From: an uncultured Alphaproteobacteria bacterium
Lineage (GTDB): Bacteria; Pseudomonadota; Alphaproteobacteria; Thalassobaculales; Thalassobaculaceae
Direction: 5' to 3'
DNA: 64,000 nucleotides
Assembly: GCA_902589475.1 (NCBI GenBank)
Contig: CACITD010000001.1
Coordinates: 1 to 64,000 of the forward strand
The translations under genes and the position numbers were made by a program. The notes below the pieces were generated by a model. The model did not search any database, was not told the DNA's origin, and saw only the letters and a program-made list of their open reading frames with translations. Shown piece by piece: positions 18,918 through 30,001 of the stretch (within the stretch, counting starts at the first letter, position 1; every line of letters begins with the position of its first letter).

Positions 18918-20273
18918 TTAGTCAGATCGAGCTTGCCTCATTGTAACGAATTCTTCTGCAGCGGTTGGGTGTATTCCGACAGTGGCATCAAAGTCTAACT
19001 TCGTTGCTTTTGCCTTAATCGCGATTGCAATACCCTGAATTATTTCTGGTGCATCTACCCCGATCATATGCGCTCCGATAACGCGTTGAGAACTTCTCTC
19101 TACAATAAGTTTCTGAAGTCCGCGCTCCATATTTTCTGTCATCGTATATTTCATTGGACGAAATCCCGATACATACACGTCTATTTCATCGAATTTCTCT
19201 CTCGCTGCCTCTTCCGAAAGGCCTACCGAGGAAATCGGCGGCTGACTGAAAACAGCGCACGGGATGTCTTGGTAATCCATATTTTTTGGGGCATTATTAA
19301 ATACTGTTTCGGCAAAAGCTTGGGCTTCTGCAATTGCCACTGGCGTCAAATTAATTCGATCCGTCACATCTCCTAAAGCATAAATATTGCTAATGTTTGA
19401 TTGGTTCCATTCATTTACCACAATGGCACCGTTTTCGCGCAAATTTATACCTACGCTCTCCAGGCCTAAGCCTTTTGTATTTGGAACTCTTCCAGTGGCA
19501 TAAAGTACCTGGTCTGCTTCAATATATTTACCATTTGAGAGGTACACTTTATATCCTGCCTTGTTTTTCTCAATGCGTTCGGGCAAGCACTGCGTCTGAA
19601 TTCTCACTCCTTTCTTCGTCATTTCTTCCATTAACGCGTTACGCAGATCAATATCAAATCCTCTTAATACTTTATCTGCTCTGAAAACAATATCTACTTC
19701 AGAGCCAAACCCTGCAAAGATACCAGCAAACTCAACTGCTATATAACCTGACCCGACTATTACAATACGTTTGGGTTTCTCGTTCAATTCCAGCGCTTCA
19801 TTTGAACTGATAGAGTGCTCAATACCCGGGATATCCGGCTTATATGGCCATCCTCCTACCGCAATTAAAATTTTTTCTGCTGTAATTTCTTTTCTTCCTA
19901 TTTTAACGGTGTGTTTGTCAGTCAATATTCCCCGTCCACTGATCCTTTCTACGCCGGCATTATCCAGAAGATTTACATATATTTGATGAAGCCGATCGAG
20001 CTCCCTGTTTTTTGCTTCGATCATTCCTGCCCAGTTATGATTGACTCCATTAAATTTCCAGCCATAACCCTCTGCGTCTGAAAGCTCTTCGGCGACGTGG
20101 CTCCCATAAACTAATAATTTCTTTGGGACACATCCTCTAAGAACACAAGTACCGCCTTCTCTCAACTCTTCGATAATGGCCACGCGAGCCCCGTAAGCAC
20201 CTGCAAGACGTGAAGCCCGCACTCCGCCAGAACCAGCACCGATTGTTATGAGATCGTAGTCAAACTTTGCCAT
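18918..20273 (-). CDS. gor: Glutathione-disulfide reductase
   Basis: The 451-residue flavoprotein has the FAD site IGAGSGGVRASR, the redox-active disulfide Cys43/Cys48 in GTCVLRGCVPKK, the NADPH fold IVGSGYIAVEFAGIF near 175, the GDVTDRINLTPVA segment near 300 and the C-terminal catalytic HPTAAEEFV. These fit glutathione reductase of the plant/alphaproteobacterial type rather than lipoamide or mercuric reductase. It keeps the cytoplasmic glutathione pool reduced. An AAAGG ribosome site precedes the ATG. It is monocistronic and convergent with the PPOX gene. Confidence 0.93.
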   Translation of the reverse strand: MAKFDYDLITIGAGSGGVRASRLAGAYGARVAIIEELREGGTCVLRGCVPKKLLVYGSHVAEELSDAEGYGWKFNGVNHNWAGMIEAKNRELDRLHQIYVNLLDNAGVERISGRGILTDKHTVKIGRKEITAEKILIAVGGWPYKPDIPGIEHSISSNEALELNEKPKRIVIVGSGYIAVEFAGIFAGFGSEVDIVFRADKVLRGFDIDLRNALMEEMTKKGVRIQTQCLPERIEKNKAGYKVYLSNGKYIEADQVLYATGRVPNTKGLGLESVGINLRENGAIVVNEWNQSNISNIYALGDVTDRINLTPVAIAEAQAFAETVFNNAPKNMDYQDIPCAVFSQPPISSVGLSEEAAREKFDEIDVYVSGFRPMKYTMTENMERGLQKLIVERSSQRVIGAHMIGVDAPEIIQGIAIAIKAKATKLDFDATVGIHPTAAEEFVTMRQARSD

Positions 20274-20520
20274 CGGTGTAACCTTTCAGAAAAATAATTC
20301 CAATTCGTATTTAGACATCAGTTCAATTCAGAATTTAACCTCATCATTGAAGATGAAAAAGAGGATAGTTCAGAAATCATCAAATTTTTAGTTAGAGTTC
20401 ATCTCTAGCCTGCTAAAGTCAAATAAGTGGAGAAATTAGTAAAGATTAATAGTCAAGTTAACTTTATTGCATAATACTTGGTTGAGTTTGTTAAATTTTT
20501 GTAATGATTGGTTTTTGAAT

Positions 20521-21159
20521 ATGATTAATATTCGAAATTTATCAAAACTAACCTTTATCTCACTTTTTTTTTCAATGTTAGTTGTCTCTTATACGATTGC
20601 TGAAAGTAAGATAATTCATCTGGTCAATACCGGATGGCATGTGGGGATCGTCGTGCCGGTAGATGCAATCCTGAAGCGGAACCTACCTGAAACAAAGCAT
20701 TTTTCTAATTCGAACTTCCTAGAAATTGGATGGGGGGATGCCCGTTTTTATAAATCCAAAAACCCAACTGCACGCATGGCTTTTGAAGCAGCCTTTACAT
20801 CAGAGAGCTCGGTAATACATATCTATGCTTTTCAAAGCCCCGTAAATGAGACCTTTATAAATTCCGAGATCCTAAAGCTCGAGGTAAATGCAGAGGGTTA
20901 CAGTGAACTCCTTCGTTTTATTCATAAAAGTATTGTGAGAACCGCAAATGGAGAAGCAAAAAACGTTGGCATAGGATTACATGGTGAAAAAGTAAGTCGC
21001 TTTTATTTAAGTAATGGCGAATTCCATTTGTTTAATACCTGCAACACTTGGATAGCCGAAGCATTACAATCCGCGAAATTAGATATAAGTTCTCAGGGAA
21101 TCATTACAGCGGATAACCTCATGGAAAAAGTCCGAGAATTACCTAACAATACCGATTAA
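20521..21159 (+). CDS. DUF2459 (TIGR02117-like) family protein with signal peptide
   Basis: From the ATG at 20521 the product is 212 residues. An in-frame TTG at 20467 would add 18 residues ahead of the signal peptide and is unlikely. The N-terminus (LTFISLFFSMLVVSYTIA) is a clear signal sequence. The mature part shows NTGWHVGIVVP, EIGWGDARFY and the late signature HLFNTCNTWIAEALQ. The conserved His, Asp and Cys positions suggest a papain-like/NlpC-like active site, as proposed for DUF2459, but no activity is established. It is probably periplasmic or membrane-tethered. It is divergent from gor, with an AAGTTAACTT palindrome at 20455-20464 in the gap. Confidence 0.8.
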   Translation: MINIRNLSKLTFISLFFSMLVVSYTIAESKIIHLVNTGWHVGIVVPVDAILKRNLPETKHFSNSNFLEIGWGDARFYKSKNPTARMAFEAAFTSESSVIHIYAFQSPVNETFINSEILKLEVNAEGYSELLRFIHKSIVRTANGEAKNVGIGLHGEKVSRFYLSNGEFHLFNTCNTWIAEALQSAKLDISSQGIITADNLMEKVRELPNNTD

Positions 21160-21250
21160 AAACATGCTTTTCTAGTTTCCTAAGGGTATCTATGCGTTTA
21201 CAGTTCTTCTACTGACCATATACTTCAAGCCCTGCCGAAAAAGGATTTTC

Positions 21251-21943
21251 ATTATTAGTAAAACAGAAAATGATATAGATAATCTGAAAGCCAAAGCAGA
21301 GGCCGAGAAGCGAATATTAGAAGATACGATAAGGGCGCTTCGTGAAAAACTAGAGAATTCAGCTGCAGATACTCTTGCTCAGATTGAAAACTTGCGCGCA
21401 GCCCAGGATGGAAACCGTAGGGAGGCTGAAGGTAATATCCAGGCCCTCCGCAACAAATTAGAACAGCAGCGGAATCAATATGAAGAAAAATTAGATAATG
21501 AGAGAGCATCACACGAAGCTGCACGGAGAGAGGCAGAACAAAACATTCAAGCACTCAGAGACACCATGGAACAAATGCGTAATAACTATGAAGAAAAGTT
21601 AGATGGCGAACGTGCCGCGCATGGAGGAGTGCAGCGAAATTCCGAAGCCGGAACGCAGGCATTGAGAGACACTATGGAAAAAATGAGAAATGAATACGAA
21701 GAAAAACTAGATAAAGAACGGGCACTCTCCGAAAACGGTCGACGCGAAGCAGAGCAACGGACGCAGGCACTCAGAGACACTATGGAAAAAATGAGAAATG
21801 AATACGAAGAAAAACTAGATAAAGAACGGGCTAGTCATGACGCTACGCGACGGGATTCTGAAGCAAATGTTCAAGCACTCCGGGAGACCATGGATGCAAT
21901 CAGATCCGACTATGTAAAACAATTTCCAACCGACAATAATTAA
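21251..21943 (+). CDS. Repetitive alpha-helical (coiled-coil) protein with 36-residue repeats
   Basis: The open frame runs from 21176 to the stop at 21943 and contains no ATG or GTG. The first standard start is a TTG at 21392. The repeats, however, extend in register to at least 21260, so the protein must begin further upstream. An ATT at 21251 is preceded by AAGGA with a five-base spacer and is the best-placed start (230 residues). Each 36-residue unit follows the pattern EAE-N-QALRDTME-MRN-YEEKLD-ERA-H---RR, very rich in Glu, Lys and Arg with almost no aromatic residues except one Tyr per unit. A period of 36 is ten alpha-helical turns, so the product should be a long charged helix or coiled coil. 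It lies 45 bases before the cyclase and is probably cotranscribed. The function is unknown. Confidence 0.65.
   Translation: MISKTENDIDNLKAKAEAEKRILEDTIRALREKLENSAADTLAQIENLRAAQDGNRREAEGNIQALRNKLEQQRNQYEEKLDNERASHEAARREAEQNIQALRDTMEQMRNNYEEKLDGERAAHGGVQRNSEAGTQALRDTMEKMRNEYEEKLDKERALSENGRREAEQRTQALRDTMEKMRNEYEEKLDKERASHDATRRDSEANVQALRETMDAIRSDYVKQFPTDNN
21314..21940 (+). repeat. Tandem 108-base repeat array inside the coiled-coil gene
   Basis: Units begin at 21314, 21422, 21530, 21638, 21746 and 21854 (the last partial), each 108 bases. The units at 21638 and 21746 share a nearly identical stretch of about 60 bases (from GAGACACTATGG to AAAGAACGGGC), which points to recent duplication. The outer units are diverged at DNA level but keep the protein pattern. 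Copy number may vary between strains. Confidence 0.9.
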
Positions 21944-21988
21944 ATTCGGCAAAAGAAGTTATAAAAGTTTTTAAGAGGGAGTGGATAT

Positions 21989-24271
21989 ATGAAAGCGTCG
22001 GGTAAAAATATCTCAAGCAGCAAGAAGCTAGAAAAAGATAATGTATCAGAACAAACCCGAGACATAGCAAGTGACCTTTCGCGCCTAGGTTCATTCGATG
22101 AAATTCTAGAGTATCTAATCACCTATGTTACCCAGACACTTGAAGCCGAACGGGGTAGCCTATTCCTTCACGACCCAGCCGCACACCAATTATATACCCG
22201 CGTTGCACTTGGCAATTTATCCAGAGAAATTAGAATAGACGAACAATCTGGTGTTGCTGGCTGGGTTTTTATGAATGCCGAGGCTACAATAGTCAACAAT
22301 CCTTACAAAGATGAAAGATTTAATAAAGAAGTTGACGAACGCACCGGTTATCAGACTAAAAGTCTGATATGCGTGCCAATTTTTTCAACAGGCGATATTC
22401 CAATAGGCGTGCTGCAGGTTCTTAATAAGCAGACAGGGCGATTCACAAAGGCGGATCTTGCAAAAATTGAACTTGTCGCCTCTCAATGTGCTTCTACACT
22501 AAATACTTACGCACTTACCGAAAGGATGGAGGCGCAAAAACGACGTGAAGCTGAGTTTATGGAGTTGGTTTCAAAACTCACCACAGAGCTCGACTTATCG
22601 AGACTTTTAAACCATGTTGTCGATGCAGCCACCGACATGCTGGGTTGTGAGAGAGCAACTGTTTTTCTGAACGATGAAAAAACAGATGAGTTATTTTCTA
22701 TGGTAGGCGCAGGCCTAGGTGCTTTTGAAATACGCCTCCCAAATAACGCTGGTATTTCTGGCGCTGTATTTCAGTCAGGGGAAAACGTAAATATTCCCCA
22801 TGCCTACGCTGACCTGCGCTTTAATCCATCCTTTGACAAGCAAACCGGCTTCTTTACACGATCCGTCCTTTGCGTGCCGATTTTGAACAAGGAAGGGAAA
22901 AGAATTGGAGTAACTCAAGCCCTTAATAAAATTGGTGGACCTTTCACCGAGGAAGATGAACATAGGATACAAGCATTCACTGCGCAGATCTCAGTTGGCC
23001 TTGAAAACGCCAAAATGTTTAACGACATGCAAGCAGTAAAAAATTATAACGAAGCGATGCTTCACAGTATGTCTAATGGCGTCATAACTGTGGATGAAGA
23101 TGGCAATCTCAAAAGTGTCAATACTTCGGCCGAAAAAATCGTAAAGATATCAAGCGAGGAAAACCTAGGAAAACCTCTGTCTGATGTCCTAAATGAGCAA
23201 AATAGTTGGCTTGTAGATCAAGTTAACAAGGTACGCGAAACAGGCGAAACCGAAAACCTAGAGGATGCAGATTTAATAACCGGCGATGGAAGTCAGGTAT
23301 CTGCTAATATAGCGTTACAGCCAATGATATCTGGAGAAGGGGAAAATATTGGCGCGCTAATTCTGGTTGAAGATATATCTAGCGAGAAGCGTGTTCGTTC
23401 GACAATGTCGCGCTATATGGATCCACAACTTGCCAATCAACTTCTTGAAGAGGGCGACGGGCAAGCAATGCTGGGAGGGAAAGCAGCTGAAGCGACAGTT
23501 CTCTTTACAGATATTAGGAGCTTTACAACAATAGCAGAAGCGCTTGGGCCTCAAGATACAGTATCCATGTTAAATGAATATTTTGAGATAATGGTAGCTT
23601 GTATTACTGACGCTGGCGGTATGCTAGATAAATTTATTGGAGACGCAATGATGGCTGGTTTTGGCGTTCCTCTCCCAAGTGAAGATGCTGCCGACGCCGC
23701 TGTAAAATCATCCATAGCTATGATTTCTGAACTGCGTAAATGGAACGCTGACCGCTTAAAAACAGATAAAATGCCGGTTGGTATGGGTGTAGGCGTGAAT
23801 ACCGATAATGTTGTGACCGGCAATATTGGTTCCTCTAAGCGCATGGACTTTACGATGATTGGTGACGGCGTAAACCTAGCGGCTCGACTAGAAGGTAGCT
23901 GTAAAACATATGGCGCACAAATAATAATATCAGAGTTCACGCAAACAAAATTAAAAGGTATTTATGCACTTAGAGAGCTTGATCGCATCGTTGTGAAAGG
24001 CAAAACAGAGCCAGTTTCTATTTTTGAGGTGCTCGACTTTCATGACGACGAGACTTTCCCCGCAAGAATGGACGTAGTCGGGCATTTTACAGAGGGATTA
24101 GCACACTATAGGAATACAAAGTTTGATGACGCCATTAGATCCTTTAAAGCTGCTTTGGATGCTAATTCTGAAGATGTTCCAAGCAAGCTTTATATAGAGA
24201 GATGCGAATTATTTAAAAAGTCTCCCCCTCCTAAAGATTGGAGTGGAGAGTGGGTGATGACAGAGAAGTGA
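21989..24271 (+). CDS. GAF-GAF-PAS class III adenylate cyclase
   Basis: The 760-residue protein has GAF domains at about 40-175 and 200-342, a PAS-like domain at about 350-465 and a class III cyclase domain at about 497-680. Metal-binding Asp508 (LFTDIRSF) and Asp552 (GDAMM) are present. Lys548 (DKFIGD) and Asp620 (RMDFTMIGD) mark ATP rather than GTP use, and Asn629/Arg633 (GVNLAAR) complete the site, so it should make cAMP. The C-terminal 60 residues look TPR-like. There are no membrane segments. GAF domains may sense a cyclic nucleotide or small ligand. The start has a GAGGGAG ribosome site. The repeat protein precedes it by 45 bases; the PII/DUF1538 genes converge on it. Confidence 0.93.
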   Translation: MKASGKNISSSKKLEKDNVSEQTRDIASDLSRLGSFDEILEYLITYVTQTLEAERGSLFLHDPAAHQLYTRVALGNLSREIRIDEQSGVAGWVFMNAEATIVNNPYKDERFNKEVDERTGYQTKSLICVPIFSTGDIPIGVLQVLNKQTGRFTKADLAKIELVASQCASTLNTYALTERMEAQKRREAEFMELVSKLTTELDLSRLLNHVVDAATDMLGCERATVFLNDEKTDELFSMVGAGLGAFEIRLPNNAGISGAVFQSGENVNIPHAYADLRFNPSFDKQTGFFTRSVLCVPILNKEGKRIGVTQALNKIGGPFTEEDEHRIQAFTAQISVGLENAKMFNDMQAVKNYNEAMLHSMSNGVITVDEDGNLKSVNTSAEKIVKISSEENLGKPLSDVLNEQNSWLVDQVNKVRETGETENLEDADLITGDGSQVSANIALQPMISGEGENIGALILVEDISSEKRVRSTMSRYMDPQLANQLLEEGDGQAMLGGKAAEATVLFTDIRSFTTIAEALGPQDTVSMLNEYFEIMVACITDAGGMLDKFIGDAMMAGFGVPLPSEDAADAAVKSSIAMISELRKWNADRLKTDKMPVGMGVGVNTDNVVTGNIGSSKRMDFTMIGDGVNLAARLEGSCKTYGAQIIISEFTQTKLKGIYALRELDRIVVKGKTEPVSIFEVLDFHDDETFPARMDVVGHFTEGLAHYRNTKFDDAIRSFKAALDANSEDVPSKLYIERCELFKKSPPPKDWSGEWVMTEK

Positions 24272-24307
24272 ACCTGTTTATCAAAACCGTGCCATTCAGA
24301 TCACTGA

Positions 24308-24607
24308 CTACTTTGGATCAAGCGTTGATTTGATAATCTCAGGTGTCATAAACACCAACCCGCTTTGGTGCCCGTCAAGTTCACACAACTCATAGAGAGC
24401 ATCGAAGACTTTATCTTTTTGAGAAGCATCTGCAATAATGCTAACGATGGCAGCTTCACCAAAAGTACCAAATTGCTTCTCTTCAAAAAGATCGCTAGAT
24501 CTTCCTGTTTCTACGCTTACACTTTTTACACCTTCAAAGTCATTTAGCGTCTCTAGAGCCTTTTGACCAAAGTCTTTGCTAAGCAGTGCACCAATTTCAA
24601 CGGTCAT
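24308..24607 (-). CDS. PII-like protein (second copy), DUF1538-associated
   Basis: From the ATG at 24607, backed by a GAGGAGAG ribosome site, the product is 99 residues; longer in-frame starts would overlap the preceding gene. The beta-alpha-beta pattern TVEIGALLS, KALETLNDFEGVKSVSVETGRS, AAIVSIIADASQKDKVFDALYELC and SGLVFMTPEII is that of GlnB-fold proteins. It lacks the normal T-loop Tyr and the GlnB signatures. It starts 10 bases after the first PII-like gene. Partners of DUF1538 transporters often look like this; a role as a regulatory subunit of the transporter is inferred. Confidence 0.75.
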   Translation of the reverse strand: MTVEIGALLSKDFGQKALETLNDFEGVKSVSVETGRSSDLFEEKQFGTFGEAAIVSIIADASQKDKVFDALYELCELDGHQSGLVFMTPEIIKSTLDPK

Positions 24608-24617
24608 CTTGCTCTCC

Positions 24618-24974
24618 TCAAGCAATCTCTTTGAGAACTGACTCAGGTATATAGGTAGCAACCCGGTCCAGTTTAGTCATAAACATTATTCCTTTTCCTG
24701 GCGTATCAAGGCCGCCCGCGAGATACATAGCTTCAAATACCCTATCCGCTTGTTCTTCTGAGACGATTATTCGGATAACTTCTTTTTGTTCATCAATGGT
24801 TACGCCGAGTAGTCCCATTCTTTCTCGAATGCCCGTCCCTCGCCCATAACTAATGGTTGCACCCTGAGCACCACAATTTTTTGCAGCGTCGAGAACGCCT
24901 TCAGCTAACCCAGTCTGGAGAACGCATGTTATTAAGTTTGCTTCAGATAGATAGGTTATATTTCTTCCAGCCAT
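24618..24974 (-). CDS. PII-like nitrogen-regulatory family protein (first copy)
   Basis: The 118-residue protein has the ferredoxin-like PII fold: LITCVLQTGLAEGVLDAAKNCGAQGATISYGRGTG, then KEVIRIIVSEEQADRVFEAMYLAGGLDTPGKGIMFM. The short region between the second strand and second helix (GTGIRERMG) stands where the T-loop lies in GlnB, without a uridylylatable Tyr. It lies 31 bases after the DUF1538 gene. PII proteins bind ATP, ADP, AMP or cAMP and control partners, often transporters. Here the partner is probably DUF1538. Confidence 0.82.
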   Translation of the reverse strand: MAGRNITYLSEANLITCVLQTGLAEGVLDAAKNCGAQGATISYGRGTGIRERMGLLGVTIDEQKEVIRIIVSEEQADRVFEAMYLAGGLDTPGKGIMFMTKLDRVATYIPESVLKEIA

Positions 24975-25005
24975 GTGTAATATCCTTATCTTATGGTTAA
25001 ACTTT

Positions 25006-26727
25006 TTAACTTTCTTGAGTCACCTTTGTTTTCTGGGTCATTTGTATTACTAGCCCCATCGTCAAAACTGCGACAATCGGGCAAATACTCGCCAGCGATA
25101 GTATTCCAAATCCTTCTATTGCGGAAACAGCATTACCTAACCCTAATCCCATGGCGAGAACCAGGGGAACAGTTACAGGCCCCGTAGTGACACCAGCGCT
25201 ATCCCAGGCGACATTCACAAACTCTTCTGTGGATAAAAAGGTCATAATAATGCCTATTGCATACAGCGGTAATAGCAACATCATAAGGTCGAGGTGAAAA
25301 ATCAATTTAGCAACGCCAAGTGCAATTCCAACAGCCACACCCGTAGCCACACTATACATGAGCATAGACTTTTTAAATGCACCGTTAGTCAATTCCTGTA
25401 CTGTTAGGCCAAGAGCATTTAGGGCGGGCTCGGCTAGCGTAGAACCAAAACCTAATAAAAATGCAAAGCCAACGCATATGACGAAGCCAACAATCTCGGG
25501 ATAGTGCGGTGAGTTCTCAACAATTGGAAGTTGCATAAACGCAGCGGGCAAAGCGCTTCCTGTTTGAGACCCAATTGCCCCAAGCCCGTAAGTTAAGCCT
25601 ACATTGAAAATACACATTCCCAAAATAGATAGAGTGAGACCGTAGATGGTAACCATCCTATTTGGAAGTGTCGAACGTAGCACTATAAACAGAACAAACA
25701 TAAGAAAGATGACTAGAGGCAGAATAGCTCGTACACCCAAAACTATCTCAACTAATGGCGTCTGATCCCAGATGCTTAGCTCTGTCTGCGTCGACCCGCC
25801 GGCACTTGCTGCGGCAGCAATAATTTGTTCCGGAGTGACTGTAAACGAAACAAAAACTGATAGTATTAGGACAGCTAATATGGGAAACAAGGAAGCTAAG
25901 GTAACGACGCCAAAGCCTGAAAGCGATGAATTTCCTTTTCCTGCTGCATTTGCTATTCCGATACCAAGCGATAACACCAACGGCACCGTTACGGGACCGG
26001 TTGTTACGGCGCCACAATCCCACGCTAAGCCTAGTATACTTTGAAGGTTGGGATCACTCCAAGCATATAAAGAGAGTAGGGCAACTGGCGTTAGTGCTAA
26101 ATAAATCATTGGTTTTAGCGACCATCCTTTAACAAACCTTACCGTACCTAAAATTGCTGCAAGCCCCACACCAGCACCAACCATAAGAACAAGTGGCATC
26201 GTCCAATTATTTAGCAATTCATATAAGTAGGGCGCCTTCTTAACGTCCACCGAAGCTCCAAAAGCCTGGAGCGCACCAATTGCTGGTTCTGCAAAGGTAA
26301 CACCGACGCCGAGTATGCCTATAATGATATAGACTACAGTCATTGAGGCCTTTTTCGGCAGATTATCCCCTATAATCTTACCAAATGGCATGAGCCCTGT
26401 ACTGAGCCCTTCCATAAATACAGCCAAACCAATAATAACCGCAGCCAAACCTACAGCAAGGGATGCTGCTGCATCAATTGGCTGTCTTAACACTAATACT
26501 TGGAAAAGGATAAGATACAAGGCTAGAGGTACGACAGCTTTTATTTGATCCATAATTCTTACGTAGCTGTATGGGCCAAGAAGATCCACCGCGCTTTTAA
26601 AGGTAACATTTATTTTTTTTGGTTTTAGGGCGTTAGGGTCTCCATCAACTGGCTTAGGTGTCAGCATATTATAACTCACGGTTTTATAGCTGACATTTGT
26701 TTGTGCCAAGTACTGCGAATAACGCAT
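25006..26727 (-). CDS. DUF1538 family membrane transporter (duplicated)
   Basis: The start at 26727 (573 residues) has a GGAGAG ribosome site; an ATG four codons earlier is also in frame. The protein is hydrophobic with more than twelve membrane segments and two homologous halves. Each half contains an EPA-ALQAFG or EPALNALG motif and the highly conserved WD-(S/C)-(A/G)VTTGPVTVPLVL. DUF1538 proteins are thought to be cation or anion transporters but no substrate is proven. The association with PII-like proteins downstream is conserved in many bacteria. It is the second gene of a probable four-gene minus-strand unit that ends at 24308. Confidence 0.85.
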   Translation of the reverse strand: MRYSQYLAQTNVSYKTVSYNMLTPKPVDGDPNALKPKKINVTFKSAVDLLGPYSYVRIMDQIKAVVPLALYLILFQVLVLRQPIDAAASLAVGLAAVIIGLAVFMEGLSTGLMPFGKIIGDNLPKKASMTVVYIIIGILGVGVTFAEPAIGALQAFGASVDVKKAPYLYELLNNWTMPLVLMVGAGVGLAAILGTVRFVKGWSLKPMIYLALTPVALLSLYAWSDPNLQSILGLAWDCGAVTTGPVTVPLVLSLGIGIANAAGKGNSSLSGFGVVTLASLFPILAVLILSVFVSFTVTPEQIIAAAASAGGSTQTELSIWDQTPLVEIVLGVRAILPLVIFLMFVLFIVLRSTLPNRMVTIYGLTLSILGMCIFNVGLTYGLGAIGSQTGSALPAAFMQLPIVENSPHYPEIVGFVICVGFAFLLGFGSTLAEPALNALGLTVQELTNGAFKKSMLMYSVATGVAVGIALGVAKLIFHLDLMMLLLPLYAIGIIMTFLSTEEFVNVAWDSAGVTTGPVTVPLVLAMGLGLGNAVSAIEGFGILSLASICPIVAVLTMGLVIQMTQKTKVTQES

Positions 26728-26856
26728 GCTTCTCTCCATCCCAAAGCAAAAGTTGTCTGATAATAGTTAAATTTCTAACTTATTACAATAAATTCTAGGT
26801 TTTAGAGACTATTACTAATCTTGCCCCTTAAACGCACAAGCAAGATAACATTTGTT

Positions 26857-27093
26857 TTAGGAGCTAAAATATTGCGATAAACGTTTAACGGCTTGGCAAA
26901 CAACCAAAAAAATTACGGGGGACAGTATCAAAAGAAGTAGGCCACTCAATCCTGGAACATTCGATAAAAATTCGATCCACCTAAGCCACACCTTTATAAC
27001 TTCGCTACGAAAAATGATCACAATAAGGGAAGTAGCAAGCGACACAACTAAAAATGCAATAAAGAATTGTATTTTCTTGGAAGACTTTCTCAT
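26857..27093 (-). CDS. Small membrane protein, unknown
   Basis: The 78-residue frame encodes a basic N-terminus (MRKSSKKIQ) and two hydrophobic segments (about residues 10-28 and 45-67) ending in a basic tail. It lies 129 bases upstream of the DUF1538 gene in the same direction and may be a small partner of the transporter. No clear ribosome site is seen, so the call is moderate. A + strand frame over the same bases is far less protein-like. Confidence 0.5.
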   Translation of the reverse strand: MRKSSKKIQFFIAFLVVSLATSLIVIIFRSEVIKVWLRWIEFLSNVPGLSGLLLLILSPVIFLVVCQAVKRLSQYFSS

Positions 27094-27434
27094 AAGTATG
27101 CGAACAATTCTGGGAAATAATCAAAAAAGGATTTCAAATTTAAAAGATATACATCTACCACTCGGCCAACAACCGCAACCTAATTCAGATAGAAACATCA
27201 CGGGTTCGCAAAATCTATCACCCAAAAAAAACTTTACTACTGACCATGACCTTATCCTCTGCGTTTAGAAGCAAATAATTAGCTAAATAGAGACTATTAC
27301 ATATGACTGAAAATTGCTGCAGCACTAATTGCTGAATCAATAAATAAATGATAGTCCTCATTCATCTGTGAAAGATACTTTTCAGTATAATTTAACATCT
27401 AGGTAAGAGAATAATCTCACCAGGGGACTAACAC
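27094..27434. other. Gene-free intergenic region
   Basis: This 341-base AT-rich gap separates the divergent small membrane protein and adenosine-deaminase-like genes and should hold their promoters. The only striking element is a perfect 10-base palindrome TGCTGCAGCA at 27315-27324. I see no RNA gene and no convincing terminator. Confidence 0.6.
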
Positions 27435-28517
27435 ATGCCCATCAAAAATCTCAGACATCTTCCTAAAGCGCATCTGCATCTGCATTTAGAAGGCGCAATG
27501 CGTCCCGCAACACTCACAGAATTCTGTGAACGTTACAAAATAAAGCGGCCTAGTGATACGAGAGGGAAACAGTTTTCAAATTTCGCTGCTTTCAATGAAG
27601 TCTATAGAGCTGCTTCAGATAGCATTCGCACGAGACAAGATTTGGCCCGGGTTATTCAAGAAGTTGCAGAAGACGCTGCTAAAGATGGTGCAACCTGGAT
27701 TGAGCCAGCCTTTGACGCAGATAGGTATACGATATTACGAGCAGACAGGTCGCTTAGATTATTTGAAACGCCTTACGAGGGATGGCTATTTGTTCTAGAG
27801 GCGGCCGGAATGGCTTCTGAAAAAACTGGAGTGGGAATTAGTTTTATTTCAGCCATTGACCGCACGCGCCCAATAGAACAGGCCAATGAAAGAGCTAAGC
27901 TTACCTCTAATTTGATTTCTTCACAGAAGCACCAGATTACCGCAAAAAATATAAATGGTGGCGAACCTTACGCGGGGATAATAGGCCTCGGCCTCCATGG
28001 AAATGAAGAGGGGTACCCGCCAGAGATTTTTGCAGAAGCTTTCCAAATCGTCACAAAAAAAACAGAAGCCTTATCAATTCCCCATGCTGGCGAAATAGCA
28101 CCAACTCCCGGGAAGGGCCCAGAATCTGTTGAAAAAGCGATGGATATATTAAGCGCATCGCGCATCCAGCACGGTGTTCTAGCAATTCAAGATGAGGTTT
28201 TGATAGAAAAAATTAAAGAAAAAAATATATGCTTGGATGTCTGTCCCTCATCAAACATTCAATTGAGTGTTTTTCCTAATATTCAGGCACATCCATTACC
28301 ACTTTTAATTGAATCAGGGGTCTCGTGTTCGCTGGGTAGTGATGACCCTCTTCTCTTTGGCCCAAGTCTTCTCGATGAGTTTGAACTTTGCCGTGAACAA
28401 ATGCGTTTATCCGATAATACATTGGCGCAATTGGCTCGAAATTCATTTAAATACAGTGGGGCTCCTAAAAAAATCGTTGAGCAAGGTTTAAGAGATATAG
28501 ATGCTTGGTTAAATTAG
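27435..28517 (+). CDS. Adenosine deaminase family protein
   Basis: The 360-residue TIM-barrel enzyme has the zinc motif HLHLHLEGAM at residues 13-22, the IPHAGE motif near residue 217 (zinc/catalytic His and Glu) and SLGSDDPLLFG near 295 with the paired Asp residues. It deaminates adenosine, adenine or a related aminopurine. The family also includes adenine and aminodeoxyfutalosine deaminases, and sequence alone does not separate them here. GAGG-like AGGGG precedes the ATG. It is a single gene, convergent with the amidase at 28556. Confidence 0.85.
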   Translation: MPIKNLRHLPKAHLHLHLEGAMRPATLTEFCERYKIKRPSDTRGKQFSNFAAFNEVYRAASDSIRTRQDLARVIQEVAEDAAKDGATWIEPAFDADRYTILRADRSLRLFETPYEGWLFVLEAAGMASEKTGVGISFISAIDRTRPIEQANERAKLTSNLISSQKHQITAKNINGGEPYAGIIGLGLHGNEEGYPPEIFAEAFQIVTKKTEALSIPHAGEIAPTPGKGPESVEKAMDILSASRIQHGVLAIQDEVLIEKIKEKNICLDVCPSSNIQLSVFPNIQAHPLPLLIESGVSCSLGSDDPLLFGPSLLDEFELCREQMRLSDNTLAQLARNSFKYSGAPKKIVEQGLRDIDAWLN

Positions 28518-28555
28518 ATGCTGAAAAAAATAATGAAAGGTAGCTTGCCAGTTTG

Positions 28556-30001
28556 TTATTGTAGAGGCGGCACCTCACCCGGCTTTGGATCTATAGGGAC
28601 TAACTCACTTAACTTGCTAGACTTTTCGAATAAACTCGCAGCTGCTAGCACAGCTGCCTCGCCACGAGGTCGACCGACTATCTGCAATCCGACGGGCCGT
28701 TGATATTTGTCAAATCCACAGGGTAATGACAGTGCAGGCGATGCACTTAGTGTCACTGCGCCCGTCAAAAGGGATGCTCCCATATAGTGTTCTAGTTTTT
28801 GCCCGTCTATAGTCAAAGGGTGACGCAAATTTACGTCAAAAGCTGGTGTGTTTGCGCCTGGTGTTATCAGCAACTCATATTCTCGGAATACGGCAGCAAA
28901 AGTTTCATATATTTGTTTTCTGGCACGCTCGGCACGTGCTAAGTCGGATGTACTTTGATTAAGGCCTATTTCGGTATTCCAAATGATATCCTTTTTAACC
29001 TGGTCACGATGATTTTTGAGTTGTAATTCTCTATCGATAACAAACTGGTGTGATCGCAATGCAAGAAAAGTTGACTCCAAATCTTCTATTTCTAAAACAA
29101 TCTCATCCACTTCTACGCCCATGGATTTAAAATGCTCCATAGATTTGGCTGCAATCTCCCTTGTCTCCTTATCAACTGGCGCGCCGCCAATAGTGGATGC
29201 ATAAGCAATGCGTCTGGGGGGCACCGCTTTTTGCACAGATTCTGAGAATGACTCAGTTGGCGCATCAAATGTCATAGGGTCCAGAGGGCAAAATCCTGCC
29301 ATAGTGTCAAGAAACAAAGCGACGTCTTCTACCGTGCGGGCCATCGGTCCTTGAACAGATAATGGTGAAAACATTGTGTTCACCGTGCCTCGCGTCACTC
29401 TTCCTGGCGAGGGTCGCAGCCCAACTACCGAACAGTATGTGGCAGGTCGTCGCAAACTCCCACCATGATCACTCCCGTGAGCCAGCCAGACTTGCCCCGC
29501 TGCCAAGGCAGCTGCCCCTCCTCCTGTTGAACCCGCCGGCGTCAATGATGTATTCCAAGGGTTACAGGTTTTGCCAAAAACATCATTAAAGGTCGACCCA
29601 CCAGCGCCAAACTCTGGAGTGTTTGATTTTGCAATTATTATACCTCCCATATTTTCAATTCTCTTGACTAGAGGGTGCGAAGTTTTTGGGATATGATCTT
29701 TGAAGATTGTGGAACCATAAGTGGTACGAACACCAGCCACATCAGTAAGGTCTTTTATTGCAACCGGCAGCCCCGCCAACCAGCCTCTGTTATTTTCTGA
29801 CCCGTGTCGTTCCTTTTCCATCAAAGCCTTTGCTTGGGCTCGGGCTCTTTCTAGACATAATGTTGGCAATGCATTAATAGCTGGTTCTGTTTCCAGGATA
29901 CGAGTTTCAGCTGCTGAGATCAGCTCTAGGGGTGAAATTTCACCCTTTTTCAAACCCTCTACCACTTCTGAGGCAGTCAATTGCACTAAACCTTTATCCA
30001 T
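28556..30001 (-). CDS. Amidase signature family hydrolase (second copy)
   Basis: The start at 30001 (481 residues) is chosen for the GAGGAG ribosome site just before it; ATG codons at 30013 and 30046 are in frame but less well placed. The catalytic Lys83 (PVAIKDLTDVAG), cis-Ser158 (PAGSTGGGAAA) and nucleophile Ser182 (GSDHGGSLRRPA) are all present. The GSDHGGSLR variant marks a different subgroup from the amidase at 11021. It cleaves a carboxamide; the substrate is unknown. It is monocistronic, with a TTGTAAA/TTTACAA dyad in its upstream gap. Confidence 0.9.
   Translation of the reverse strand: MDKGLVQLTASEVVEGLKKGEISPLELISAAETRILETEPAINALPTLCLERARAQAKALMEKERHGSENNRGWLAGLPVAIKDLTDVAGVRTTYGSTIFKDHIPKTSHPLVKRIENMGGIIIAKSNTPEFGAGGSTFNDVFGKTCNPWNTSLTPAGSTGGGAAALAAGQVWLAHGSDHGGSLRRPATYCSVVGLRPSPGRVTRGTVNTMFSPLSVQGPMARTVEDVALFLDTMAGFCPLDPMTFDAPTESFSESVQKAVPPRRIAYASTIGGAPVDKETREIAAKSMEHFKSMGVEVDEIVLEIEDLESTFLALRSHQFVIDRELQLKNHRDQVKKDIIWNTEIGLNQSTSDLARAERARKQIYETFAAVFREYELLITPGANTPAFDVNLRHPLTIDGQKLEHYMGASLLTGAVTLSASPALSLPCGFDKYQRPVGLQIVGRPRGEAAVLAAASLFEKSSKLSELVPIDPKPGEVPPLQ

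Follow-up and report, generated by a model that had tools for sequence, protein, structure and literature searches.

Which signal governs a transporter whose gene is followed by genes for two different PII-like proteins and faces an adenylate cyclase gene? The question is raised by a locus in the window, the 64,000-nucleotide stretch of DNA analyzed here, for which a first-pass annotation had proposed a PII-controlled transporter gated by cAMP from the neighboring cyclase. The features of the locus are compiled in Table 1. Two different PII-like genes do lie on one strand, PIIa being recognized by Pfam and PIIb by profile comparison and fold, and they converge, as annotated, with the gene of an intact class III cyclase, the stop codons of the cyclase and PIIb genes being 36 bp apart. 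The small membrane protein that had been listed with them is present, but its gene is kept only in the nearest relatives and lies 117 bp from the DUF1538 gene; it is outside the conserved module. The DUF1538, PIIa, and PIIb genes (24308-26739, minus strand) are spaced 10 and 31 bp apart, as one operon-like unit.

Table 1. Features of the DUF1538-PII locus in the window and coiled-coil genes that precede the cyclase at related loci
Feature	Coordinates	Strand	Basis or remark
Coiled-coil protein gene	21392..21943	+	Just upstream of cyclase
Class III adenylate cyclase (P0005), GAF-GAF-PAS-cyclase, weak TPR match	21989..24271	+	Pfam, motifs
PIIb, divergent second PII-like protein, 99 aa	24308..24607	-	Profile comparison and predicted fold
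PIIa, PII-like protein, 118 aa	24618..24974	-	Pfam P-II match
DUF1538 membrane protein, UmpA-like and UmpB-like halves fused	25006..26739	-	PF07556, NCBIfam
Small two-helix membrane protein	26857..27093	-	Closest relatives only
Adenosine deaminase gene	27435-28517		Pfam A_deaminase; divergent, upstream of operon
Coiled-coil gene before cyclase, locus L136	L136:17640-18257		
Coiled-coil gene before cyclase, locus L141	L141:15336-15950		
Coiled-coil gene before cyclase, locus L144	L144:12042-12614		

The start of PIIb was placed at the ATG at 24607, which is preceded by the Shine-Dalgarno-like sequence TTGAGGAGAGCAAG; the TTG at 24661, which gives the longest frame, was rejected in its favor. 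The true start of the DUF1538 protein is probably Met5 (26727), since the proteins of relatives begin with MRYS. An Rfam search of window positions 20000-29000 gave no match, and a promoter and terminator scan returned matches no more numerous than in shuffled sequences. The divergent position of the adenosine deaminase gene relative to the operon is also seen in the window's nearest relatives.

A scan of 84,980 species, each represented by a single genome, yielded 181 confirmed stretches, of which we kept the best 80, each with a close relative of the window's DUF1538 protein. These best 80 loci are mostly from marine Alphaproteobacteria (SAR116 and others), and the remaining loci of the clade are from Gammaproteobacteria, Nitrospinota, and one Nitrospirota genome. 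The order DUF1538-PIIa-PIIb was found in 76 of them, and in the other 4 the contig ends first; the association is therefore not due to chance. As controls, we used 20 other DUF1538 loci across the phylum, 15 of which contain split pairs and 5 of which are centered on a fused chain of another type; in one of them (L111) a split pair lies beside the fused chain. A single PII-like gene was directly beside each DUF1538 unit at all 20 control loci, indicating that one PII is the rule for DUF1538 and that two are special to the window's clade. The same was true for an adjacent PII-like gene at 8 of 8 further UmpA loci, one of which repeats a control genome (G095). Since all 28 DUF1538 loci sampled outside the clade have an adjacent PII, one per transporter, DUF1538 looks like an obligate PII partner, and the proposed PII control of the transporter gains support. 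At L111 (3255-7446), the split and the fused DUF1538 systems stand side by side, each with its own PII gene.

PIIa scored 33.6 bits against a Pfam P-II cutoff of 25, and PIIb alone matched no Pfam or NCBIfam family. Profile alignment of the two proteins (hhalign) gave a probability of 98.3 and an E value of 1e-14 over 102 columns. The AlphaFold2 model of PIIb (pLDDT 83) has the beta-alpha-beta-beta-alpha-beta topology of the ferredoxin-like PII fold; PII proteins make up the overwhelming majority of its best Foldseek matches (probability 1.00), and VIA-align returned Z scores of up to 10.8 (91 aligned, rmsd 4.1). A sequence search of the PDB with the PIIb profile found weak matches only, the best of which is a PII (E value of 0.058). 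On the strength of the PIIa-PIIb profile comparison and the predicted fold, PIIb is a true member of the PII superfamily. Its sequences in the deepest branches still contain ITCFLPKG close to the N terminus and retain a PGGG loop (L080), as is consistent with an ancient duplication of PIIa. Homology extends to all three kinds of protein, PIIa, PIIb, and the PII that occurs singly at the other DUF1538 loci; the last of these matched PIIa with a probability of 98.7 versus 96.1 for PIIb and is thus the counterpart of PIIa rather than of PIIb.

The ligand-binding regions of both proteins depart from the canonical pattern. PIIa keeps the B-loop GxG and is devoid of the canonical Lys90 and the C-terminal RxR, and the B-loop of PIIb is degenerate, with one of two glycines kept. 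In an alignment with the genome's own canonical PII, the B-loop GDGK and the RxR were absent from both PIIa and PIIb; canonical phosphate-binding residues are thus missing in the window's PII proteins, and the same genome contains two separate canonical PII genes. An arginine pair (R50 and R52) at the base of the PIIa T-loop resembles the phosphate contact R43xxR46 of SbtB, a likeness that is suggestive only. SbtB also has a redox R-loop with the motif CGPEGC (PMC10117731); neither PIIa nor PIIb has a C-terminal cysteine pair of this type.

The DUF1538 protein contains two PF07556 stretches (349.8 bits; Pfam cutoff, 22.6), and its halves are homologous (32% identity; E value of 1.6e-25). The motif reported for both halves was recovered as VTTGPVTVPLVL, once in each (residues 245-256 and 517-528), and the surrounding region is almost invariant in both halves of 40 sequences down to about 30% identity. 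The top NCBIfam match is UmpA (E value of 2e-61; best stretch, 62-296), followed by UmpB (2e-51; 336-572). Scores in the corresponding equivalog tests (NF041627 and NF041628) were 207 and 175 bits, below the cutoffs of 490 and 500, and no UmpA equivalog above the cutoff was found in 295 genomes of one order. As judged from these profiles, the window's fusion is related to the UmpA/UmpB equivalogs but a separate form. The first-pass annotation had regarded DUF1538 substrates as unproven, a view that does not hold for the family as a whole: UmpAB, a DUF1538 pair, showed Na+(Li+,K+)/H+ antiport after expression in Escherichia coli KNabc (PMC5484666). From this activity of the one DUF1538 pair assayed, cation/proton antiport is the most likely activity of the window's protein. 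The UmpAB paper makes no mention of PII (PMC5484666), and our literature search, limited mostly to open-access papers, found no link between DUF1538 and PII; within the same scope, DUF1538 is named in five papers and treated at length only in the one on UmpAB. Comparison of the AlphaFold2 model of the DUF1538 protein (pLDDT 79) with solved structures gave no Foldseek match with an E value of ≤0.001 and no VIA-align match with a Z score of ≥8, which is no evidence of a new fold.

The convergent cyclase, P0005, matched Pfam Guanylate_cyc with 83.6 bits, and its catalytic motifs are intact, including the metal-binding aspartates, the adenine-recognizing Lys (DKFIGD), and the Asn and Arg in VNLAARLE; its nearest orthologues have the same motifs by pattern. 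Na+ sensing has been proposed for some GAF domains. For the tandem GAF region of P0005, the best solved match is 1ykd, the GAF tandem of Anabaena CyaB2 (PMC4411481). Orthologues that are 50 to 95% identical to P0005 are missing from many genomes and number about one in each genome that has them. The GAF-GAF-PAS cyclase adjoins the module in the window's lineage (W); elsewhere on the same contig it was found at distances of 6.4 kb (L144), 8.1 kb (L141 and L142), 9.8 kb (L143), and about 11 kb (L136 to L138), and in other genomes cyclase and module fall on separate contigs. In all contexts compared (the window, L136 to L138, L141, L143, and L144), the gene of this cyclase follows one for a coiled-coil protein, a possible partner of the cyclase. 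The locus L004 (L144) has a module 95% identical to that of the window in a different context, with no convergent cyclase; the same-type cyclase found there is 52% identical to the window's.

We then surveyed cAMP-related genes with cNMP-binding and class III cyclase domain profiles, checked against Pfam. A cyclase and/or cNMP-binding gene lies within 3 kb of DUF1538 in 39 of the 80 loci kept, compared with 0 of the 20 control loci, among which L112 shows a weak cNMP match at a distance of about 5 kb. These 39 loci fall into five groups on the DUF1538 tree that differ in their arrangement, namely, (i) the window type (W), with a convergent GAF-GAF-PAS cyclase; (ii) group P, with a cyclase and then one or two cNMP-binding genes, codirectional and upstream; (iii) group S (SAR116), with a cNMP-binding gene downstream; (iv) group G (Gammaproteobacteria), with a cNMP-binding gene and a CHASE2-cyclase downstream; and (v) group N (Nitrospinota/Nitrospirota), with a Na+/H+ exchanger that has a cNMP domain. 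The condition under which the first-pass annotation would have been refuted, a cyclase neighborhood absent from all relatives, thus does not hold, the GAF-GAF-PAS type recurring also 6 to 11 kb away in several other lineages. One lineage has the genes for cyclase, cNMP, cNMP, DUF1538, PIIa, and PIIb in this order, codirectional and with short gaps, and at L038, L041, L044, and L047 of this lineage the module locus holds the sole class III cyclase detected in the genome. In the P lineage, about 40 to 90 bp separate the cNMP genes from DUF1538 on a single strand. Most of the cNMP-binding proteins of the P, S, and G lineages have phosphate-binding cassettes that look intact. The exchanger of group N is of the NhaP type with a C-terminal cNMP-binding domain (L074 and L078 to L081) and occurs in at least three orientations relative to the module.

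As background, 26 genomes of the clade contain 3 to 25 cNMP domains and 1 to 12 cyclases per 0.9 to 3.2 Mb, which corresponds to a chance expectation of about 3% per locus. A cAMP gene in 5 of 15 lineages then has a P value of about 6e-5 (6e-4 at a rate of 5%), which is indicative only, since the lineages were grouped post hoc with the data already seen; this strict count leaves out L033, where the cNMP gene encodes a CRP-type transcription factor, and L075, where the cNMP gene is more than 3 kb from DUF1538. About half of the 80 loci kept, some of them with short flanks, lack a cAMP gene in the 3-kb range, among them L004 with its 95%-identical module, and this counts against the explanation that we favor. 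So do the scores of the fusion far below the UmpA and UmpB equivalog cutoffs, the lack in PIIa of canonical nucleotide contacts and of the SbtB R-loop, the place of the neighboring cyclase in an adhesin/type I secretion/FecR island in several lineages, and the failure of the DUF1538 model to match any clear fold relative among solved structures. The cyclase link in the window's clade is a real genomic association; the cAMP mechanism is putative.

The explanation that we favor, with a confidence slightly above even, is a PII-gated antiporter of the Ump type that probably has a two-PII sensor and is coupled to cAMP in the window's clade. The operon-like unit would encode a UmpAB-type secondary cation/proton antiporter as a single UmpA-UmpB fusion, together with dedicated PII regulators. 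PII proteins control transporters by docking, an example being GlnK and AmtB. A PII trimer would likewise dock via its T-loops on the cytoplasmic face of the transporter, as GlnK does on AmtB and SbtB on SbtA, and docking would be set by a small ligand, probably an adenyl nucleotide. PIIa is the ancestral partner of the transporter and PIIb a diverged extra copy unique to the clade, which probably forms mixed oligomers with PIIa or provides a second layer of control. Because cyclases and cyclic-nucleotide-binding proteins recur beside or inside the operon, we propose that the antiporter is functionally tied to cAMP signaling in this clade; the target of cAMP would be either a PII itself or separate cNMP-binding proteins, which could read the signal in the P, S, and G lineages. 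A more specific version, in which a mixed PIIa-PIIb trimer binds the cAMP of the neighboring cyclase and gates an Ump-type Na+/H+ antiporter, with GAF domains of the cyclase that possibly sense Na+, is in our judgment unlikely. Overall, the interpretation given in the first-pass annotation is partly supported.

The PII-controlled transporter may instead read ATP, ADP, AMP, or another metabolite, the cyclase and cNMP-binding genes acting only on transcription or on other targets; this reading is possible, if doubtful. It draws on the finding that one PII accompanies each transporter at 28 of 28 other DUF1538 loci and a cAMP gene lies within 3 kb at none of 20 loci with long flanks, so that PII control extends beyond any link to cAMP, and on the fact that SbtB and canonical PII proteins read ATP, ADP, and AMP (PMC10117731). 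However, it leaves unexplained why cAMP genes recur in five arrangements beside the two-PII clade and why cNMP-binding genes are inside the apparent operon of one lineage. A fortuitous linkage, in which the cAMP genes are part of a type I secretion/FecR/adhesin island fixed near the antiporter and the linkage is genomic rather than functional, appears quite unlikely. Genes for FecR, HlyD, ABC exporters, and large adhesin-like proteins do lie between module and cyclase in P, G, and L143, so the cyclase linkage may partly reflect such an island, and the neighbors in the P, S, and G lineages and at L075 include FecR, CHASE2-cyclase, HlyD (some with a cNMP domain), ABC exporters, and very large proteins. 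Yet the window's lineage has the cyclase without the island, the Nitrospinota carry the NhaP-type exchanger with a cNMP domain instead, and the P-lineage cNMP genes are on the same strand as DUF1538 and close to it (about 40 to 90 bp).

The cargo of DUF1538 may also be different, with bicarbonate or an organic anion, for instance, in place of alkali cations, and the KNabc phenotype of UmpAB would then be an indirect or member-specific effect; we hold this to be rather unlikely. A single DUF1538 pair has been assayed (PMC5484666), the model search recovered no fold relative, and ammonium or bicarbonate is the cargo of the best-studied PII-controlled transporters; against this stand the antiport reported for UmpAB (PMC5484666) and the Na+/H+ exchanger next to the module in Nitrospinota.

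Comparison with known systems places the PII-gated antiporter proposed here among several precedents. (i) Like UmpAB of Halomonas zhaodongensis, the window's protein has halves that match the UmpA and UmpB profiles and a nearly invariant VTTGPVTVPLVL region, but it is one fused chain below the equivalog cutoffs and is accompanied by two PII genes. (ii) As in SbtA-SbtB, a Na+-dependent bicarbonate transporter and its PII-like protein, a transporter gene is followed by a dedicated PII-like gene, and R50 and R52 at the T-loop base of PIIa resemble R43xxR46 of SbtB (PMC10117731); the transporter sequence families are unrelated, however, and the window has two PII genes, neither with the C-terminal cysteine R-loop. 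The SbtB-SbtA complex is favored by AMP and prevented by cAMP (PMC10117731). (iii) AmtB-GlnK shares with the window a PII gene beside a membrane transporter, and by analogy plug-like docking would be expected for the window's pair, whereas PIIa and PIIb are without the GDGK B-loop and RxR and two canonical PII genes exist elsewhere in the genome. (iv) NifI1/NifI2 show that two different PII proteins can be encoded together (PMC8809328), both homologues lying in one operon with their target; that target is nitrogenase, and the likeness of the window's pair lies in its co-encoding in a fixed order. (v) Anabaena CyaB1/CyaB2 combine, as does the window's cyclase (best solved match, 1ykd), tandem GAF domains with a class III cyclase, but the window's cyclase gene sits beside an antiporter gene. 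(vi) The sperm Na+/H+ exchanger SLC9C1 is gated by voltage and cyclic nucleotide (PMC6052114); it is eukaryotic and has a voltage sensor, and its likeness to the DUF1538 module and to the Nitrospinota NhaP-type neighbor with its C-terminal cNMP-binding domain lies in the concept of cyclic-nucleotide control of Na+/H+ exchange.

One pair of the widespread DUF1538 transporter family has been characterized, and the presence of a PII gene at every DUF1538 locus sampled provides the family with a regulator and with a mechanism that can be tested. Members of the two-PII, cAMP-flanked clade are frequent among marine Alphaproteobacteria (SAR116 and relatives), and the clade's recurrent siting beside genes for making or binding cAMP suggests that this conserved gene set of marine bacteria may be a bacterial cAMP-linked ion transporter. 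If so, it would represent a rare dedicated two-PII sensor on a transporter and a rare case of bacterial cAMP action on ion homeostasis.

Several minor observations were made on the surrounding genes. A contig-end fragment in a Planktomarina MAG (G474:C61:1-858) is 85% identical to the window's cyclase and possibly reflects misbinning or transfer. One lineage of marine Alphaproteobacteria has, between module and GAF-GAF-PAS cyclase, an adhesin/type I secretion/FecR island that contains cyclases of its own (L136:7145-17625 and equivalents). Control of type I secretion by cAMP is suggested by membrane fusion proteins of the HlyD family that have a cNMP-binding domain at the N terminus (L035:957-2687 and similar; L025:559-2319).
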